A DNA stretch of 27,636 bases from a virus, in the IMG/VR virus record IMGVR_UViG_3300046491_000336, positions 1 through 27,636 of that record. The stretch is one strand, 5' to 3'. Under the pieces are notes generated by a model. That model was not told the DNA's origin. It made no database searches and saw only the letters and a list, made by a program, of their open reading frames with translations. Shown one piece after another: positions 2,219 to 25,708 of the stretch; within the stretch, counting starts at the first letter, position 1, and every line of letters begins with the position of its first letter. Position numbers and translations under genes: made by a program.

Positions 2219-3316
2219 ATGGGACAGGCGAAATCACGAGGCAGCAAACAAGAGCGAGTAGAACAAGCATTAAATCGCCAGATGGAGGCAGACCGCGCAG
2301 CCGCAGAGCGTCGGCGAGCCGTGGGCCAGCAGATTGCCAGGTTCAACAAGCTTTATCAGACCAAGGTGTGCCTTGCACCACACCAAAATCATGAAGGTCC
2401 AATCGTATCTGCGCACACTCTGTCCCTCGAGGCATTTTTAAGACCAATATCAAGAGACGGTCGCGTTTATGCTATGCGCGGAAACATCAGTGGAGACCAC
2501 TTAAAATTCCCCCTGAATCTCGAGTTGCAAGGTTTGCGAGATGTTTCTGTTTTTAACGGCTTCTGCCGTGCACATGATCGGGATCTATTTGCGTGCATTG
2601 AGACTCGGGCTTTCGAATTCACCTCTGAGCAACTGTTTATGCTTGCATACCGGGCCGTAGCTCGCGAAAGCTATTACAAACGAAAACAGTTTGAGTCCAC
2701 CCCTTCTCTTGAACAGTACGCTGCGATGCATAGCATTCAAGAGGACGTACAGTTCTCAGAGCAATTTGAAAAATATCTTTCAGAGGTTCTCGAAAGCGCA
2801 TCAGACATTGAAGCGCTGAAAAGCCGACTAGATGAAGTACTGATAGCTAAGGATTGGAAAAGGCTTGTGTCTCGGGCTTTGATCTTCCCTGAGCCGCCAA
2901 CTGTAGTAGCGTCTTTCGCTGTTGAGCCAACCGTCGACTTTAACGGAAATCGGCTTCAAGACTTGGCAGACAGAACTGTCGAAATATCCCATGTAATGGT
3001 TTCGATCATTCCCCTGAAATCCGGAAGCGCAGCAATTTTTTCTTGGCTCGATACAGCGAATGACGCTCCATTGAGACTTTTTGAGTCATTGGCACATTCA
3101 GGCTCACCCACCTTAGCCGTAATACACGCAGCACTAGATCTCAGTGAAAACGTTGCGCTTTCTCCTGAGTGGTACGAGTCATTGAAGCCGGCAACCCATA
3201 AATACATCGAGTCTCGGATGTTGAATTTCGCCCAAGACGAAATTTATGCAACCCATGGCAACCCGTTGGCGCGCTCCCCGAACCTTGGTGATTGGGGAGA
3301 ACCAGCCCATTTATAG
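2219..3316 (+). CDS. Hypothetical protein, 365 aa, possible degenerate HNH-like zinc region
   Basis: The product begins MGQAKSRGSKQERVEQAL, followed by an Arg/Ala-rich helix to about residue 45. Residues 50-125 contain C..PH, then HEGPIVSAHTLSLEAFL, and later FNGFCRAHDRDLFACIE. This C/H layout recalls a family of bacterial proteins whose C..C, AH and GFC..HD motifs suggest an HNH-like zinc fold, but I cannot name it and one of the usual cysteines seems to be replaced. The rest is helical with no membrane segment. The ATG at 2219 is preceded by the heptamer array that provides the ribosome binding site. The gene ends 16 nt before an inverted repeat motif that opens the T6SS cassette. Function unknown; a nuclease-related role is only a guess. 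Confidence 0.7.
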   Translation: MGQAKSRGSKQERVEQALNRQMEADRAAAERRRAVGQQIARFNKLYQTKVCLAPHQNHEGPIVSAHTLSLEAFLRPISRDGRVYAMRGNISGDHLKFPLNLELQGLRDVSVFNGFCRAHDRDLFACIETRAFEFTSEQLFMLAYRAVARESYYKRKQFESTPSLEQYAAMHSIQEDVQFSEQFEKYLSEVLESASDIEALKSRLDEVLIAKDWKRLVSRALIFPEPPTVVASFAVEPTVDFNGNRLQDLADRTVEISHVMVSIIPLKSGSAAIFSWLDTANDAPLRLFESLAHSGSPTLAVIHAALDLSENVALSPEWYESLKPATHKYIESRMLNFAQDEIYATHGNPLARSPNLGDWGEPAHL

Positions 3317-3331
3317 AATCAACGCCGTATG

Positions 3332-14213: not shown

Positions 14214-15491
14214 TTATCTACAACTAATCGTCCACAATTGATCAAGGCGCGTCGTGTAGCTCTGACTCATCATCTCGCGTCGCATTGCCCAATCGGGATT
14301 GATCGGCACACCCGCAGACCGCAGCGTTCCCCTGCCCCACCTCTCGTTGATCTTATCCAGCACCGTCATCAGGTTCGTCGCCTCTGCCGATTGTGTGGTG
14401 GCAAATAGATCCTCGGTGAATTCACCAGGCAGACAAAGATTGACGAGCATCACCTCTGCCTTGCTGTATTTGAATCCCGGCCGGAATACGCGCTCGACAG
14501 CGTTGACGGCGGCCTTGGTCAGCAGACGCACATCATCGGTTGGATATGGCAGTTCGATCAGGACGCCGTTTGCGTACTTGGCCTCGTCCGGATTAAACAT
14601 GCCGGTGCGAATGCTGACGCGGATCTTCTTACACAGCGAGTTCTGGGCCCGCAGCTTTTCCGAGGCGCGCATCACGTGAGTGGCGACGGCCTCCTTGATC
14701 GGTGCCAGTTCTGTGAGGCGCTTACCGAACATTCTGCTGCAGCAGATCTCCTGCTTGGGCGGATCCGGCTCGTCCAACTCAAGACATGCCGTGCCAGCCA
14801 ATTCACGGGCGGTCTTCTCGATCACCACGCTGAAGTTTTTTCGTAGCGTCCAGGCATCTGCCTTGGCCAAGTCCATCGCAGTCTTGATGCCCATACCATC
14901 TAGGTGCAGCTTCATGCGCCGCCCTATCCCCCAGACCTCGGCCACGTCCGTGTTGCGTAACACCCAGTCGCGCTTGATCGGGTCGCAGATGTTCACGACG
15001 CCCCCGGTTTGCGCCTGCAGGCGTTTGGCGGTGTGGTTGGCCAGCTTGGCCAGGGTCTTGGTGTGCGCGATGCCGACGCCGACGGGGATGCCCGTACAGC
15101 GCAGCACCTGGCTGCGGATCTTGCGGCCGAGTCCGTCCACGTCGTTGATGCCGGTGAGGTCGACGAAGGCTTCGTCGATGCTGTAGACCTCGACGGCCGG
15201 CACCATAGACTCGATCAAGGTCATGACACGTTCGCTCATGTCACCGTACAGCGCGTAGTTCGAGGAGAACGGGACAATGCCGTGTTGCTTGAGTTTGTGT
15301 TTGATCTGGAAGTACGGCTCGCCCATTTTTACGTAGGGCTTGGCGTCGTAGCTGCGGGCGATGACGCAGCCGTCGTTGTTCGACAGCACCACGATGGGCA
15401 CCTTCGCGAGGTCTGGACGGAACACGCGTTCGCAACTGGCGTAGAAGCTGTTGCAATCGATCAGGCCGAATATCGGCGGCGCCTTAGACAT
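14214..15491 (-). CDS. umuC: UmuC-type DNA polymerase V catalytic subunit (RulB-like)
   Basis: A 425-residue Y-family polymerase. It begins IFGLIDCNSFYASCERVF (catalytic Asp in LIDCNSFYAS), with YSIDEAFVDL (the DE pair of the active site) near 100-110, GIPVGVGIAHTKTLAKLAN, the helix-hairpin-helix part VWGIGRRM, and the little finger. The conserved tail MSQSYTTRLDQLW is followed by only four more residues, so the gene is full length with a slightly altered end. It inserts nucleotides opposite lesions after SOS induction together with processed UmuD. ATG at 15491 overlaps the umuD stop by 8 nt, so the two are coupled. The island genes begin directly beyond its 3' end. Confidence 0.97.
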   Translation of the reverse strand: MSKAPPIFGLIDCNSFYASCERVFRPDLAKVPIVVLSNNDGCVIARSYDAKPYVKMGEPYFQIKHKLKQHGIVPFSSNYALYGDMSERVMTLIESMVPAVEVYSIDEAFVDLTGINDVDGLGRKIRSQVLRCTGIPVGVGIAHTKTLAKLANHTAKRLQAQTGGVVNICDPIKRDWVLRNTDVAEVWGIGRRMKLHLDGMGIKTAMDLAKADAWTLRKNFSVVIEKTARELAGTACLELDEPDPPKQEICCSRMFGKRLTELAPIKEAVATHVMRASEKLRAQNSLCKKIRVSIRTGMFNPDEAKYANGVLIELPYPTDDVRLLTKAAVNAVERVFRPGFKYSKAEVMLVNLCLPGEFTEDLFATTQSAEATNLMTVLDKINERWGRGTLRSAGVPINPDWAMRREMMSQSYTTRLDQLWTISCR

Positions 15492-15909
15492 GGCTGCGCA
15501 CGCTGCTGGTGACGACACCCCAGATCGCCAGTTCGTCACCTTCAAGGACGTACCGCGGCGGATACTTGGGGTTTTCTGACATAAGGATGACTTCTCGACC
15601 GCGAAGGCACAGACGCTTGCACACGGGCTCATTGTTCAACAACGCAATGACTATGTGTCCGTGGGCTGGCTCGATTGATCGATCGACAATGGCCAAGTCT
15701 CCCTCATAGATCCCGGCGCCCTGCATGCTTTCACCTGTGAGCGAAACCAGGTAGACGTGGGGCGCACTAATGTTAAGCACCTCATCCAACGAGATCTGGG
15801 CTTCGATGTGATCCGCTGCCGGCGACGGAAACCCGGCCGGCACACGGAAGAGGCACAGCGGCACCTTTAAGCCGCCCTCACTGATGGGGCCTAGAATTGA
15901 GTAACTCAT
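15484..15909 (-). CDS. umuD: UmuD-type translesion polymerase subunit, self-cleaving (RulA-like)
   Basis: A 141-residue S24 peptidase-fold protein. The cleavage site is probably Ala-Gly in PAGFPSPAADH near residue 25, the catalytic Ser is in GESMQGAGIYEGD, and the catalytic Lys is in VCKRLCL. RecA filaments trigger self-cleavage to UmuD', which joins UmuC to make polymerase V. The ATG at 15909 lies about 20 nt from a perfect LexA box. The promoter overlaps that box, so expression is SOS-controlled. Confidence 0.96.
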   Translation of the reverse strand: MSYSILGPISEGGLKVPLCLFRVPAGFPSPAADHIEAQISLDEVLNISAPHVYLVSLTGESMQGAGIYEGDLAIVDRSIEPAHGHIVIALLNNEPVCKRLCLRGREVILMSENPKYPPRYVLEGDELAIWGVVTSSVRSHV

Positions 15910-20612: not shown

Positions 20613-23261
20613 TTAGACATGGGGTTCGTCGTAAAGCCTGGCAGCGTTACTCTTCGCCGCGTCCGCCATCATTCGTTGCATGTGCGGCATCAGATCCTGC
20701 GCCAAGGCTTGCGGGTCTTTCACGTCCCCCTGCACCGTGACCGGCATATTCAGCGAGTACTGAAACTGCTGATCCACCTTGGCCGGAACCGGCTTCTCCG
20801 CCTCCTTGGGCTGGATAGCCAGCGCGGCCGACTTGAGCGGCGCCGTCACCGCCATCGAGCGCGCGACATCTCCCAACACCGGGCCTTGCTGCGCCGCTGA
20901 CGCCATCATGAGCGGCGTGACTGGCACCGGCGCCTTTGCCGTTTGTTCGGGCTTTTCATCCTCGTCACCGAACAACGACTTACCCAACGACCCGCCCAGC
21001 ACCGCACCACCCTGACTGCCCAGGTAAGCACCGATCAAGCCGCCGATGGCCGGGCCGATAATCGGCACCATCAAACCAATGGTGGCCCCAGCTGCTGCGC
21101 CGGCCATGGTGCCGGCCAGGTTGCCAGCGGCCGAACCGTAACCTTCGGCTTTTTCGTTCTTGGTCTTGGCGTTTTGAAAGGTTTCAAAAGCCATCGCGCC
21201 GGACTCCAGCAGCGTGCCGCCAGGAATGACCTTGGCCACCTTGCCGGCCTTGCCGACGGTTTCGGCGACGACGCCGAGCTTGGACAATGCCCCAGGGACT
21301 GATGGCGACGGGATCGAAACAGGTGGCCGCGAAACCGGAACAGATGGACGTGAAACCGGAACAGATGGACGAGGCACAGATGGGCGAGTACCTCTCGAAC
21401 TCGGCAACGATCGGCGCCGCGCGCTGCGCCTTGACCCACGTCCACGTCGGCGCGATTCGCCCGACGCATCCACACCGCCACCCATAGCGCCGGCATTGAC
21501 GACGAAAACCTTCTTGACGCCGTCGTTACCTGCACCACTTTCAGTACCAAGGCCACCGCCTGTTGCCGCATCCTTCACCCGCGAAACAACATCCAGGCCA
21601 GTCGCTACCAGATCAAGCTCTCCGGGGTTTTTATTTGGGGCTTCGCTCCCATTCCTGCCACCGCGCGACCCACGCGCAAGGTTTAGCAGTCCCTTGCTGA
21701 TCTTGATCGTGCTGAAGATACCTTTTAAGGCAATCAGCCCCGCCCCGACCGTGGCGATACCGGCAACCACCCCGGGCGCGCTATCAGTCAGCGACGTAAT
21801 GCCTTTAGTAACCTTGGTCAACGACTCGGCCACGGTGTCCGTCACCGGGCGCAGCGCATCACCGATGCTGCGCATGGCGTCATCCATCGACTGGGCCATT
21901 TCCGCCCATTTCTGCGATGACGACTCGCGCCGCTCGGCGAGGTTCTTGTCGAGGATCCCGGTCGCGTCACGCGAATCGTTTTTGAGCTGGCTGTACAGCG
22001 CCTTGTTCTGCATGTAGGCCGACAGTGCGGCCTTGACCTGCATGTCGGCGAACAGGTCGCCGGTGCGCAGGGATTCTTCCAGCGAGGCCATCATGGCCTT
22101 GGCCTTCTCCGGGTCGGCTTCCTTGCTGATTTTTGACGTGGCTTCGGCCATGGCCGCCGCACGCTTCGGATCGGTCGCCTGAATGTACTTCTGAGCCAGC
22201 GACATGCTGGTCTCAAGCGTCGACATGCCGTTTTGCAAACCGGTCTGCATCGATCCCTTGTAATCAATCCCGGCTTTTTCGTAGGCCTTGACCGTATCAG
22301 TCGAGCCGATTTTGCCCATCCAGTTTTTCAGGTTGTTGGCCGCTTCGTCCGAACTGCCAGCCTGCTTCATCTGCACCTGCAACATGGCGCCCAGTTGCGT
22401 CACCGCATCCAAGCCGGTGATGCCGTTGCTGGCCATGTTCGCCAACAGCTCCGGAAACCACTTGGCCATGTCGGCCGCTTCAAAGCTGCCTGCCTGACCT
22501 TGGTAGGCGATCGCTTCCAGCGCCTGCTGCATCTGCTTGGGATCGGTGATCTTGGCGTTCTGCCCCAAGGCGTTGATCATCTTCGCCGTATCGACGCCAC
22601 TGGATCCCTGCCCCACGACAAACTTGGCTGCGACAGGCGCGTATTCCAGCGCCTTGCTCAGGTCCATACCGGCACCGACCAACTGATTGACCACGTCGGC
22701 CACATCGTTGCGCGCCATGCCGGTGTCGCGTGAAGTGTCGATGATCTTGCGCGACATCTCCTGCTCTTGCGGCTTGTTGGCAATGCCGGCCTTGATCGCG
22801 ATGTCACGCACAATCGCGCCAAAATCCGCGCTGACCTTGGCCGGTACCGCCATGGCACCGACACCGACCACCGCCGCACCGACAGCGCCCTTCATGCCCT
22901 TTACACCAGAATCGATCTGCTGATGACCCTTGGCTTTCAGCTCGGCTTTGTTGGCCATCTGCCCCATCGAGCGATAGGCTTTTTCCAGCCGGCCGACCTC
23001 GACCCCCTGCTTTTTCAAGCTGTCGAGGTTCGAGTTCAAACGGCTGAGTAATTTGGACGCACCGGCAGCGCCGGTGTCGTGAGCCTTTTTCCATTCTTCA
23101 CGCAGGCGGATGGTGTCGCCAATCGTGCGCTGCAGCACACGCGCTTTGTTGCCTTCTGCCTCGAGGCGCTTGATACGCCCGGTCACATCCTTAAACGCGG
23201 TGCCGACCGTGGAACTGACGGCGCCGCCGATCACCAGCCCGAGGGCGATTTTGTTCGCCAT
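20613..23261 (-). CDS. Phage tail tape-measure protein
   Basis: An 882-residue protein that sets tail length and is packed inside the tube. The N-terminal 120 residues are a coiled coil (LKKQGVEVGRLEKAYRSMG). The TP901-type tape-measure core follows (GGAVSSTVG, AFKDVTGRIKRLEAEG, GMARNDVADVVNQLVGAGMD, ITGLDAVTQLGAMLQVQM). Residues about 605-655 are a Ser/Arg/Pro low-complexity linker with PSVPVSR repeats. A Gly/Ala-rich hydrophobic part near 715-765 (GLMVPIIGPAIGGLIG) may help insert into the target membrane. Start ATG at 23261. Confidence 0.93.
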   Translation of the reverse strand: MANKIALGLVIGGAVSSTVGTAFKDVTGRIKRLEAEGNKARVLQRTIGDTIRLREEWKKAHDTGAAGASKLLSRLNSNLDSLKKQGVEVGRLEKAYRSMGQMANKAELKAKGHQQIDSGVKGMKGAVGAAVVGVGAMAVPAKVSADFGAIVRDIAIKAGIANKPQEQEMSRKIIDTSRDTGMARNDVADVVNQLVGAGMDLSKALEYAPVAAKFVVGQGSSGVDTAKMINALGQNAKITDPKQMQQALEAIAYQGQAGSFEAADMAKWFPELLANMASNGITGLDAVTQLGAMLQVQMKQAGSSDEAANNLKNWMGKIGSTDTVKAYEKAGIDYKGSMQTGLQNGMSTLETSMSLAQKYIQATDPKRAAAMAEATSKISKEADPEKAKAMMASLEESLRTGDLFADMQVKAALSAYMQNKALYSQLKNDSRDATGILDKNLAERRESSSQKWAEMAQSMDDAMRSIGDALRPVTDTVAESLTKVTKGITSLTDSAPGVVAGIATVGAGLIALKGIFSTIKISKGLLNLARGSRGGRNGSEAPNKNPGELDLVATGLDVVSRVKDAATGGGLGTESGAGNDGVKKVFVVNAGAMGGGVDASGESRRRGRGSRRSARRRSLPSSRGTRPSVPRPSVPVSRPSVPVSRPPVSIPSPSVPGALSKLGVVAETVGKAGKVAKVIPGGTLLESGAMAFETFQNAKTKNEKAEGYGSAAGNLAGTMAGAAAGATIGLMVPIIGPAIGGLIGAYLGSQGGAVLGGSLGKSLFGDEDEKPEQTAKAPVPVTPLMMASAAQQGPVLGDVARSMAVTAPLKSAALAIQPKEAEKPVPAKVDQQFQYSLNMPVTVQGDVKDPQALAQDLMPHMQRMMADAAKSNAARLYDEPHV
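21331..21372 (-). repeat. Two tandem 21-bp units in the tape-measure gene
   Basis: GAAACCGGAACAGATGGACG recurs at 21331 and 21352 (plus-strand reading; the 21st base differs) and encodes PSVPVSR repeats on the minus strand. Units are in frame, so copy number changes would lengthen or shorten the linker. Confidence 0.85.
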
Positions 23262-23299: not shown

Positions 23300-23404
23300 T
23301 CAATCCGTGAGCCACCACACCATTTCCGCAAACGGCATCGACTGGATCTCAGCGGCGGAAAAACCGGTTTCCGCCGCCAGACGTTTCGCCGCCGACTTGA
23401 TCAC
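23300..23404 (-). CDS. GpE-like small tail protein, possibly made by +1 frameshift
   Basis: A short frame of 34 codons ending GFSAAEIQSMPFAEMVWWLTD, which matches the P2 GpE family (a short helix, then M.F.E...W). Reading from the GTG at 23404 gives it alone, but the ribosome binding site is poor. In this frame the sequence stays open upstream across the end of the preceding chaperone gene. A +1 slip at its final CTT TAA would make a fused longer product (F-N-P-S and onward), the form such tail chaperones usually take. Confidence 0.7.
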   Translation of the reverse strand: MIKSAAKRLAAETGFSAAEIQSMPFAEMVWWLTD

Positions 23405-23411
23405 GCTGGGG

Positions 23412-24011
23412 TTAAAGCCCGTCGTCGTTGTCCATGCGAAAATAGCCGGCCTGCAAGCGGTTAAAATCCAACAGCTTCAGCCCCTCCAGATCCGCGACAG
23501 GCGCACCGGACAACGCGGCAAACAACACCAGTTCGCGCTGCTCATCGTCACCACCCACTTCACGGTTGGCGGCTCGCACGTCGCCCACGGTCGGCGAACG
23601 CAAGGCCAGCTTGTCGACGGTCACCCCGTTGATTTCACTCGGGCACGACAGCGTCACCAGCACCTGATCGGTGGTCAGCGACAACCATGCCGGCATCGAG
23701 TCCGAATAATCGGTTTTCGGCACCAGGTGCGTATACGCCGCCTGCACGCGTCGATAGTCGGCCATCTTGAGGCCTTCAAGATCCTTCAGCCCGACTTCAG
23801 CCAGACCGGCGAACAACATCAGCTCGCGCTGTTCGTCGTCACCATTGGCGGCGCGGTCGGCCGCGCGTACCGCACGCACGGTCGGGGCACGCAGGGTCAA
23901 CGCCTCTACGTCGACGCTGTTTGCTTGACTGGGACGGGTCAGCGTTACGACGGCACCGATTGCACTGAGCGACAGCCAAGCCGGCAGGTTTTTAGCGATT
24001 GCTTGAGTCAT
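23412..24011 (-). CDS. Tail-assembly chaperone with two tandem copies of the domain
   Basis: A 199-residue protein made of two homologous halves. The first starts LPAWLSLSAIGAVVTLTRPS, the second MPAWLSLTTDQVLVTLSCPS; both continue with (A/S)PTV..VRAA, GDDEQREL.LFA and DLEGLK..D..R.QA. The unit resembles the Mu gp41/P2 GpE-type tail assembly proteins, about 80-100 residues alone. It lies between tube and tape measure, the expected place, and ends in MDNDDGL with CTT TAA as last codons, next to a GpE frame (see the preceding entry). Start ATG at 24011. Confidence 0.85.
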   Translation of the reverse strand: MTQAIAKNLPAWLSLSAIGAVVTLTRPSQANSVDVEALTLRAPTVRAVRAADRAANGDDEQRELMLFAGLAEVGLKDLEGLKMADYRRVQAAYTHLVPKTDYSDSMPAWLSLTTDQVLVTLSCPSEINGVTVDKLALRSPTVGDVRAANREVGGDDEQRELVLFAALSGAPVADLEGLKLLDFNRLQAGYFRMDNDDGL

Positions 24012-24024
24012 CTGAATCTATTCC

Positions 24025-24528
24025 TTACATGCCGAGTGCTTGGCGCACTTCAAGCAGTTGGTCTTTGCCGTCGATCACCTGAATGCCGGCGACCATGTCG
24101 ATCTCGTACATCAGGCGCCCGTCGATTTCGAGCTTGTAGTACGTGACCGAAACGGCGTGTTTAATCTCGGCCGCATCACCGGCTTTCCAGTCACCGAGAT
24201 CGACCTCTTTGAGGCGACCGCGCAGGGTGGCAACGACTGCTGTCACAGCGCCCTTTTGGCCCTTGAAGGCACCTCTGAACGTGGCGTTGAACGCCGTGCC
24301 GTCGGCCAGGCCGAAGTACTTCAGCGACTCGCGGCGCACGCCCTTGGTGACAAACGAGGCTTCCATTTTTTCAAGCCCCTGATCCATATCGATGGGGCCA
24401 GCCATGCCGCCGCCACGATATTCGTCGGTCTTGGTGGTCAGCTTGGGCAGCGTCAGGCTCGGCACGTCGCCGGAGAAGTTCACGCCGTCGACGAACAGGT
24501 TGGTGTTGTACAAAGTCTGAGGAATCAT
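24025..24528 (-). CDS. Major tail tube protein (FII)
   Basis: A 167-residue protein of the P2 FII family: LYNTNLFVDGVNFSGDVPSLTLPKL, EYRGGGMAGPIDMDQGLEKMEASF, and a C-terminal TYYKLEIDGRLMYEIDM. It builds the inner tube that is driven through the target envelope. It follows the sheath gene by 13 nt on the same strand, so the two are co-transcribed. Confidence 0.95.
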   Translation of the reverse strand: MIPQTLYNTNLFVDGVNFSGDVPSLTLPKLTTKTDEYRGGGMAGPIDMDQGLEKMEASFVTKGVRRESLKYFGLADGTAFNATFRGAFKGQKGAVTAVVATLRGRLKEVDLGDWKAGDAAEIKHAVSVTYYKLEIDGRLMYEIDMVAGIQVIDGKDQLLEVRQALGM

Positions 24529-24541
24529 TGGTTACGCCCCC

Positions 24542-25708
24542 TTAGGCTGCTTCAAGCACTTCGGTCATCCACTGATCGGTGACTTCGAAAAGGAAATTCG
24601 GGTTCTCTGCCGGCGGCACGTCGGTGAAACGGATGCGCCAATACACCTTGCCCTGGGCGATCTGGCTGGCCGTGTTCAGTTCGGTGTCGGCGAACACTTC
24701 AAAGTTGATGATCGCGCCCTGGGCTTTCAGGTCGCGCATGAACGCATCCAGACCGTTGGTGACATCGGTCACGTAGGTCTTGGTGATCGAACGGTCGACC
24801 GCCCACTTGTGCCCCGCCTGCACCGCATCCATGAGGATGAACAGCGTGCGAACGCGGGTAACGAAGGCCCACTTCGGATCGCTCGACAGCGTGCGGTTGC
24901 CCCACAGGCGATAACCGTCATCGCGAATGATGGTGGTGATATTGGCGTTGTTGAGCAGGTTGGCCCGGCAGGTCTCGTCGCCGTCCAGGTACTCGACCGC
25001 GCGGCCGGTACCGGTGATGCCGGTCAATTCCTTGTTCGATGGCGAAGCCCAGAAGCCGTATTCAGCATCCGTCCAGGCAAACAGGCCTGCCGCCCAAGCC
25101 GAGCCGGGCGCGTCGACCGTCGAACTGGTGCCCGTGTCCCAATACTTGACGCCCGGGTCGACCATGAACAGGTTGCGACTGCCGAAGTTCTCGGCGTAGG
25201 CAATAGCGGCCTCGTCGGTCGTACCCGGGCCGTCGATGATGCCGATCGCGCGCAGCTTCTGCGCCACGCTGTCGAGCGCCGTAGCCACCGCCTGAGTCGC
25301 GGTGTGGCCCGGTGCGATCAACAACCGCGGCTGAGCGTTGAACAGGCTTTTACCGTCGAGCAGCGCCTGCAGGCCGGTACGCTGACCCGAGACCAGTTCA
25401 CCGCCAATGATCGCTGAGGTCTGCAGCGCCGCGTCCTCCAGCTTGGGCACGCCGATGGCGACGATCACCGCCTTGGCTTTGACGTAGATCGCCTTACACG
25501 CCTTGGTGATTGCCGAATCGGCGCCGAAGGCGGCAATGGCCTCGCGCTCGGTAGTGATTAACTTCAGTTCGCCAGCTTTCGCCGTGCCGCCGCCGAGAAC
25601 GCCCGGGGTGAAGGTGTCGCACAGACCGATAATCGACGACGAGGGCAGCGAGATGGTGCGCGCGCCAGTGTCGACCGACGTGGTCGTGACGCCGTGGAAA
25701 AAACTCAT
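24542..25708 (-). CDS. Contractile tail sheath protein (FI)
   Basis: A 388-residue sheath protein with the conserved opening (MSFFHGVTTT, IIGLCDTFTPG), AYAENFGSRNLFMVDPGV in the middle and the C-terminal DLKAQGAIINFEVFADTELN. It forms the contracting outer layer around the tube. Contractile architecture distinguishes this cluster from F-type (non-contractile) particles. ATG at 25708; two hairpins with T runs separate it from the fibre assembly gene. Confidence 0.96.
   Translation of the reverse strand: MSFFHGVTTTSVDTGARTISLPSSSIIGLCDTFTPGVLGGGTAKAGELKLITTEREAIAAFGADSAITKACKAIYVKAKAVIVAIGVPKLEDAALQTSAIIGGELVSGQRTGLQALLDGKSLFNAQPRLLIAPGHTATQAVATALDSVAQKLRAIGIIDGPGTTDEAAIAYAENFGSRNLFMVDPGVKYWDTGTSSTVDAPGSAWAAGLFAWTDAEYGFWASPSNKELTGITGTGRAVEYLDGDETCRANLLNNANITTIIRDDGYRLWGNRTLSSDPKWAFVTRVRTLFILMDAVQAGHKWAVDRSITKTYVTDVTNGLDAFMRDLKAQGAIINFEVFADTELNTASQIAQGKVYWRIRFTDVPPAENPNFLFEVTDQWMTEVLEAA

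Follow-up and report, generated by a model that had tools for sequence, protein, structure and literature searches.

The window (the whole stretch of DNA analysed, 27,636 nucleotides) carries on its minus strand a set of phage tail genes in which the chaperone gene sits between the tube and tape measure genes, as in tail-chaperone frameshift pairs, with gpU-like, gpD-like and lysis genes after the tape measure gene. The features discussed below are, in the order in which the minus strand is read:

24542-25708, minus strand: sheath gene (PF04984/PF17482)
24025-24528, minus strand: tail tube protein FII gene, upstream of the chaperone gene (PF04985, E 9.8e-59)
23412-24011, minus strand: tail assembly chaperone gene, 199 aa (PF10109 profile match)
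About residues 22-97 and 105-193 of the chaperone: two tandem TAC_7 domains
23418-23444, minus strand: codons -10 to -2, TAT TTT CGC ATG GAC AAC GAC GAC GGG, with low synonymous variation in relatives
23415-23417, minus strand: putative slip codon CTT (Leu), read from the sequence; NTT in all relatives
23414-23416, minus strand: predicted +1 re-pairing codon TTT, read from the sequence
23412-23414, minus strand: zero-frame stop TAA abutting the slip codon, read from the sequence; TGA, TAA or TAG in relatives
23300-23413, minus strand: GpE-like extension in the +1 frame, 37 codons and TGA, read from the sequence; length the same in relatives
23402-23404, minus strand: GTG, sole candidate for an independent start ahead of the GpE core; replaced by GTT in many near relatives
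20613-23261, minus strand: tape measure protein gene, directly downstream of the chaperone gene and the small ORF (PF10145, E 8.7e-25)

The chaperone matched Phage_TAC_7 (PF10109) in two stretches (E 2.9e-41, 139.8 bits; gathering cutoff 25) and phrog_166 (tail protein) over residues 105-193, and the tape measure protein is presumed from its gene position to be the chaperone's partner. The TAC_7 domain is duplicated in tandem in the window chaperone (23412-24011), with the frameshift site after the second copy only; the two-domain chaperone is common to many prophages of the P. fluorescens group, and P. protegens-type tailocins have one domain. In Pseudomonas neuropathica P155 (L096, around 3001-3325) a two-domain chaperone is broken, the first domain running out of frame into the second, like a recombination between repeats. 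UmuD/UmuC-like genes, called from the sequence only, lie just past the lysis genes in the window (14214-15909) and in a P. chlororaphis prophage (L258, 8336-10031).

On the minus strand the chaperone gene of the window ends GAC GAC GGG CTT TAA CCC, with C as the base after the stop (23411), and a 37-codon ORF, NPSVIKSAAKRLAAETGFSAAEIQSMPFAEMVWWLTD (23413-23303, stop at 23302-23300), begins at the second base of the TAA, giving a predicted fusion of 199+37 = 236 aa. The window sequence thus bears out the first-pass annotation, which had described a CTT-stop junction followed in the +1 frame by an open frame with a GpE-like sequence. Profile searches with the small ORF returned no Pfam match above cutoff, no NCBIfam match and a weak match to phrog_10636, a family of unknown function (E 2.5e-4); the name 'GpE-like' is used because of its position and motif. 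A strong inverted repeat with a 10-bp stem lies inside the small ORF of the window (23352-23378), and this structure is not kept across relatives.

Relatives of the chaperone, gathered from viral contigs, isolate genomes and genome searches, form a large Pseudomonas phage and tail-like family in which 183 loci, the window counted, have a complete junction (143 unique). The last codon of the chaperone in the unique junctions is CTT (120), GTT (21) or TTT (2), the stop is TGA (84) or TAA (59), and the GpE ORF lies in the +1 frame with exactly 37 codons in 143 of 143; C follows the stop in the window and in 109 of the 143 unique relatives. A second search was made by the GpE peptide alone, so as not to select on the chaperone; some of its contigs overlap the first set, and NTT-stop stands exactly at the junction in all 78 loci that could be read (65 unique), one with TAG as the stop and two with TTT TGA. 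The slip site is therefore conserved as NTT-stop in all +1 members examined. After reduction to 64 non-redundant sequences (under 92% identity), CTT ends the chaperone in 50, GTT in 13 and TTT in 1. Because NTT makes up 4.2% of codons in the window tail genes, its presence before the stop in 143/143 and 65/65 unique loci is more than chance; elsewhere in the same genes CTT accounts for 24 of 625 Leu codons and GTT for 35 of 439 Val codons. A tree from which the site was left out puts the number of changes at nine or more for the last codon and seven or more for the stop, with NTT-T kept every time. Such turnover of last residue and stop around a constant NTT-T is expected of a +1 slip site but not of an ordinary gene end. 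The pattern GACGACGARSTTTGAYCC was present in 5 of 57 Pseudomonas-group genomes, in one copy each and at TAC junctions only, and its reversed control pattern had zero occurrences in the same genomes. At the end of a distant chaperone from a phylum-wide genome search (L296) the sequence is TCC TTT CGA TCC, which gives FDP in the +1 frame; this may be a +1 site in which a rare CGA codon replaces the stop.

The first residue after the junction is D, N, E or K, followed by Pro in 141 of 143 unique junctions, and position 6 is Lys or Arg; third codon positions in this stretch vary more than first and second positions. Residues conserved directly after the stop, together with third positions that vary most, indicate that the stretch is translated in the +1 frame, and the conserved Pro at position 2 lies upstream of nearly every possible start. 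These observations bear on a rival reading, which we regard as very improbable: that GpE is a separate gene initiated at a codon of its own (GTG 23404 in the window), its translation perhaps coupled to chaperone termination. Compatible with a separate gene are the GTG in the window, GTG or ATG at codon positions 4, 5 and 7 in the single-domain P. protegens group and, in the R-pyocin sister clade, a conserved ATG together with the lack of NTT-stop. However, the GTG, proposed in the first-pass annotation as a start without a good binding site, indeed has no good Shine-Dalgarno sequence before it in the window and is GTT in many near relatives, including two with 97% identical chaperones (L006, L007) in which the GpE peptide is otherwise the same. 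ATG, GTG and TTG are all missing from the first 16 small-ORF codons in 56 of 143 unique junctions and in 30 of the 64 non-redundant sequences, which excludes a separate start in those 30, and the presence or absence of an early start changes at least nine times on the tree; the second ORF is thus startless in some members while its phase, in the other frame, is conserved. A separate gene would also leave the invariant NTT before the stop, and the Pro upstream of the start, unexplained. A strong separate start in homologues, which the first-pass annotation had said would count against the frameshift, was accordingly not encountered within the +1 family (56/143 startless; GTG replaced by GTT). 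In relatives with an early ATG in GpE, separate translation may occur.

Other routes into the same frame fit the junction poorly. A -2 slip, as used by phage Mu (PMC5009743), would reach the frame that a +1 slip reaches and make a fusion with one extra residue, but the codon on which the P-site tRNA would land varies among relatives (GGC, AGC, AAC, GGG, AGG, AAG, GCG, ACG) and mismatches it, whereas the +1 re-pairing codon is TTT in every relative; a stop right after the slip codon is, moreover, typical of +1 shifty stops, and we give the -2 route very little credence. RNA polymerase slippage, or a sequencing or pseudogene artefact, could account for the frame change itself and has no other support: the run is of three T only in most relatives, and the layout repeats, with flanking frames intact and conserved, across 183 loci drawn from both isolate genomes and numerous metagenomes, making either explanation exceedingly improbable. 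The chaperone and the GpE-like ORF are, on the sequence evidence, very probably joined by a programmed +1 frameshift as one recoded gene.

Under this +1 frameshift, most ribosomes would end at the TAA and release the 199-aa two-domain TAC_7 chaperone. In a few, halted at the stop, the tRNA of the last codon would still occupy the P site and would move one base forward from CTT to TTT, AAC being read next; the slip would yield the 236-aa chaperone-GpE fusion as a minor product. By analogy with lambda G/GT, the short form would coat the tape measure protein and the rare fusion would recruit tail tube subunits. Slippage in cells, its rate and the role of the fusion are what we infer from these comparisons, and by analogy with other chaperones a few percent would do. 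Among +1 shift sites that precede a stop, CUU_U is reported to be much the most efficient (PMC5009743). GTT, the last codon in 13 of the 64 non-redundant sequences, re-pairs to TTT with a first-position mismatch, so that its efficiency is doubtful and such members may slip less.

An upstream Shine-Dalgarno stimulator was absent from the 15 bases compared with the 16S tail (duplex energies from -0.7 to -4.1 kcal/mol; the prfB control, a P. fluorescens-like element described in PMC13245932, gives -9.9 kcal/mol). The lambda chaperone:fusion ratio is 30:1 (PMC5009743), and since tail chaperones need the fusion as a minor product only, an unstimulated CUU-stop may suffice. The ten codons ending at the slip codon (23415-23444) have the lowest synonymous variation of 238 codon windows in the tube and chaperone genes (0.29 of expected; 0.38 with 64 sequences). 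However, the R-pyocin sister clade retains much of TTTCGCCTGGTG without having NTT-stop, and the low variation is for this reason not creditable to frameshifting; an upstream cis element for frameshifting was rejected, as the low variation is partly shared by R-pyocins that lack the site. A conserved downstream stem-loop was likewise discarded, the consensus structure of a 46-sequence alignment being no better than column shuffles; the window alone folds well downstream of the junction (z -2.0).

Within the TAC_7 family, the second ORF lies in the -1 frame in Burkholderia phage Mica (where it is annotated as a frameshift product), Jilinvirus, Persinger and P2/phiCTX-like prophages of Pseudomonas and other Proteobacteria. 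In a tree of the chaperone domain the +1 and R-pyocin types grouped together, separated from the -1 types with 89/98 support; a single change of direction is the suggested reading, although the domain is short, one long branch lies on the wrong side and the R-pyocins can be placed either inside or outside the +1 group. R-pyocins of the P. aeruginosa type have lost NTT-stop: their chaperone frame runs on past the junction, and an in-frame ATG is conserved in the small ORF. The first-pass annotation's other counter-indication, that relatives with these genes might lack CTT-stop, thus applies to this type only; in the rest of the +1 family, exchanges among CTT, GTT and TTT and among TAA, TGA and TAG preserve the slip. 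GpE may be made separately in the R-pyocin sister clade. Seven R-pyocin-type contigs (L239, L248, L249, L251, L252, L254, L255) keep GAG CTT but have TGC or CGC, both sense codons, in place of the stop, and in these the chaperone overlaps GpE and a conserved ATG lies within GpE; GAG CTT followed by a sense codon looks as if a stop had been lost.

The records of close relatives of the window include a GpA-type terminase, and in P. chlororaphis EA105 the tail genes of the homologous locus are preceded by terminase, portal, lambda-type decoration and capsid genes. The window itself ends at the fibre gene, its head genes being judged from near relatives, and with the terminase of those relatives and the EA105 head genes the window most likely represents the tail portion of a complete prophage. 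Among more distant relatives, P. protegens FD6 has a single-domain chaperone that ends GAG CTT TGA with GpE in +1, in a cluster that adjoins mutS and precedes a second tail cluster; no head genes were seen in this mutS-adjacent cluster, which matches the R-tailocin locus described for CHA0 (PMC7815802). The tailocin label of the first-pass annotation is thus apt for the P. protegens relatives, which are mutS-adjacent and headless, and probably not for the window, given the terminase in near relatives. With carriers of both the prophage and the tailocin type, the site seems to serve phages and tailocins alike.

Frameshifting in tail chaperones is textbook knowledge, and the shift in the P2 tail chaperone is -1. 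The window resembles lambda G/GT, P2 E/E' and Mu 41/42 in having a chaperone between tube and tape measure genes, with a small out-of-frame ORF that overlaps or abuts its end, and in the fusion as a minor product, here a predicted one; PF10109, the family of the window chaperone, is described as taking in chaperones of the E, 41 and 14 types. Unlike these systems, the window family would shift +1, and at a stop codon. Lambda shifts by -1 and Mu by -2, and tail-chaperone cases of -1, -2 and +1 are known (PMC5009743). With the shifty stop of prfB (CUU_UGA), the junction shares CTT before a stop, the predicted +1 re-pairing to TTT and, usually (109/143), C after the stop. It differs in that no AGGGGG-type Shine-Dalgarno sequence stands 3 nt upstream of CTT, the stop may be TAA or TAG, the slip codon may begin with G or T, the site is at the gene end and not near the start, and autoregulation is not expected. 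The earlier comparison with release factor 2 therefore holds for the slip codon, the stop and the usual C and fails for the upstream stimulator. In the RECODE set every one of the 295 CUU-stop sites belongs to prfB, and the CUU-stop motif is omitted from a recent frameshift predictor (PMC10885494). Tail genes with a +1 frameshift are found in Listeria phages PSA, A118 and A500, in SPP1 and in the haloarchaeal virus HSTV-2 (PMC5009743, PMC8718954), and in the Listeria phages the shift is also directly before a stop (CCC_UGA); in Listeria phages and SPP1, however, it is the major tail protein that is extended and not the chaperone, and the Listeria slip codon is a Pro codon. The nearest tailocin counterpart is the P. 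protegens R-tailocin (mutS-cinA, CHA0 type), represented by the FD6 homologue; it is headless and has a one-domain chaperone, whereas the window has two domains and nearest relatives with head genes. In the literature searched, outside of which most subscription journals fall, we found no report of the site in Pseudomonas tail genes.

Frameshifting of tail chaperones being already known, the CUU-stop +1 site in these Pseudomonas genes would be a new form of it, and a natural, widespread user of CUU-stop +1 shifting outside prfB. Its slip-codon and stop variants, in a natural set that has no Shine-Dalgarno stimulator, would suit measurement of the bare site. Neither Pfam nor NCBIfam picks up the conserved 37-residue tail protein domain, and standard annotation of Pseudomonas prophages and R-tailocins probably overlooks it as well. 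The slip would compete with recognition of the stop codon, and it is conceivable for that reason, if rather unlikely, that the chaperone:fusion ratio, and hence tail or tailocin assembly, is tied to host release-factor activity; were this so, tail production would respond to translation-termination stress as prfB does. The comparison across the TAC_7 family further indicates that the frameshift direction of a tail chaperone has switched within one protein family.
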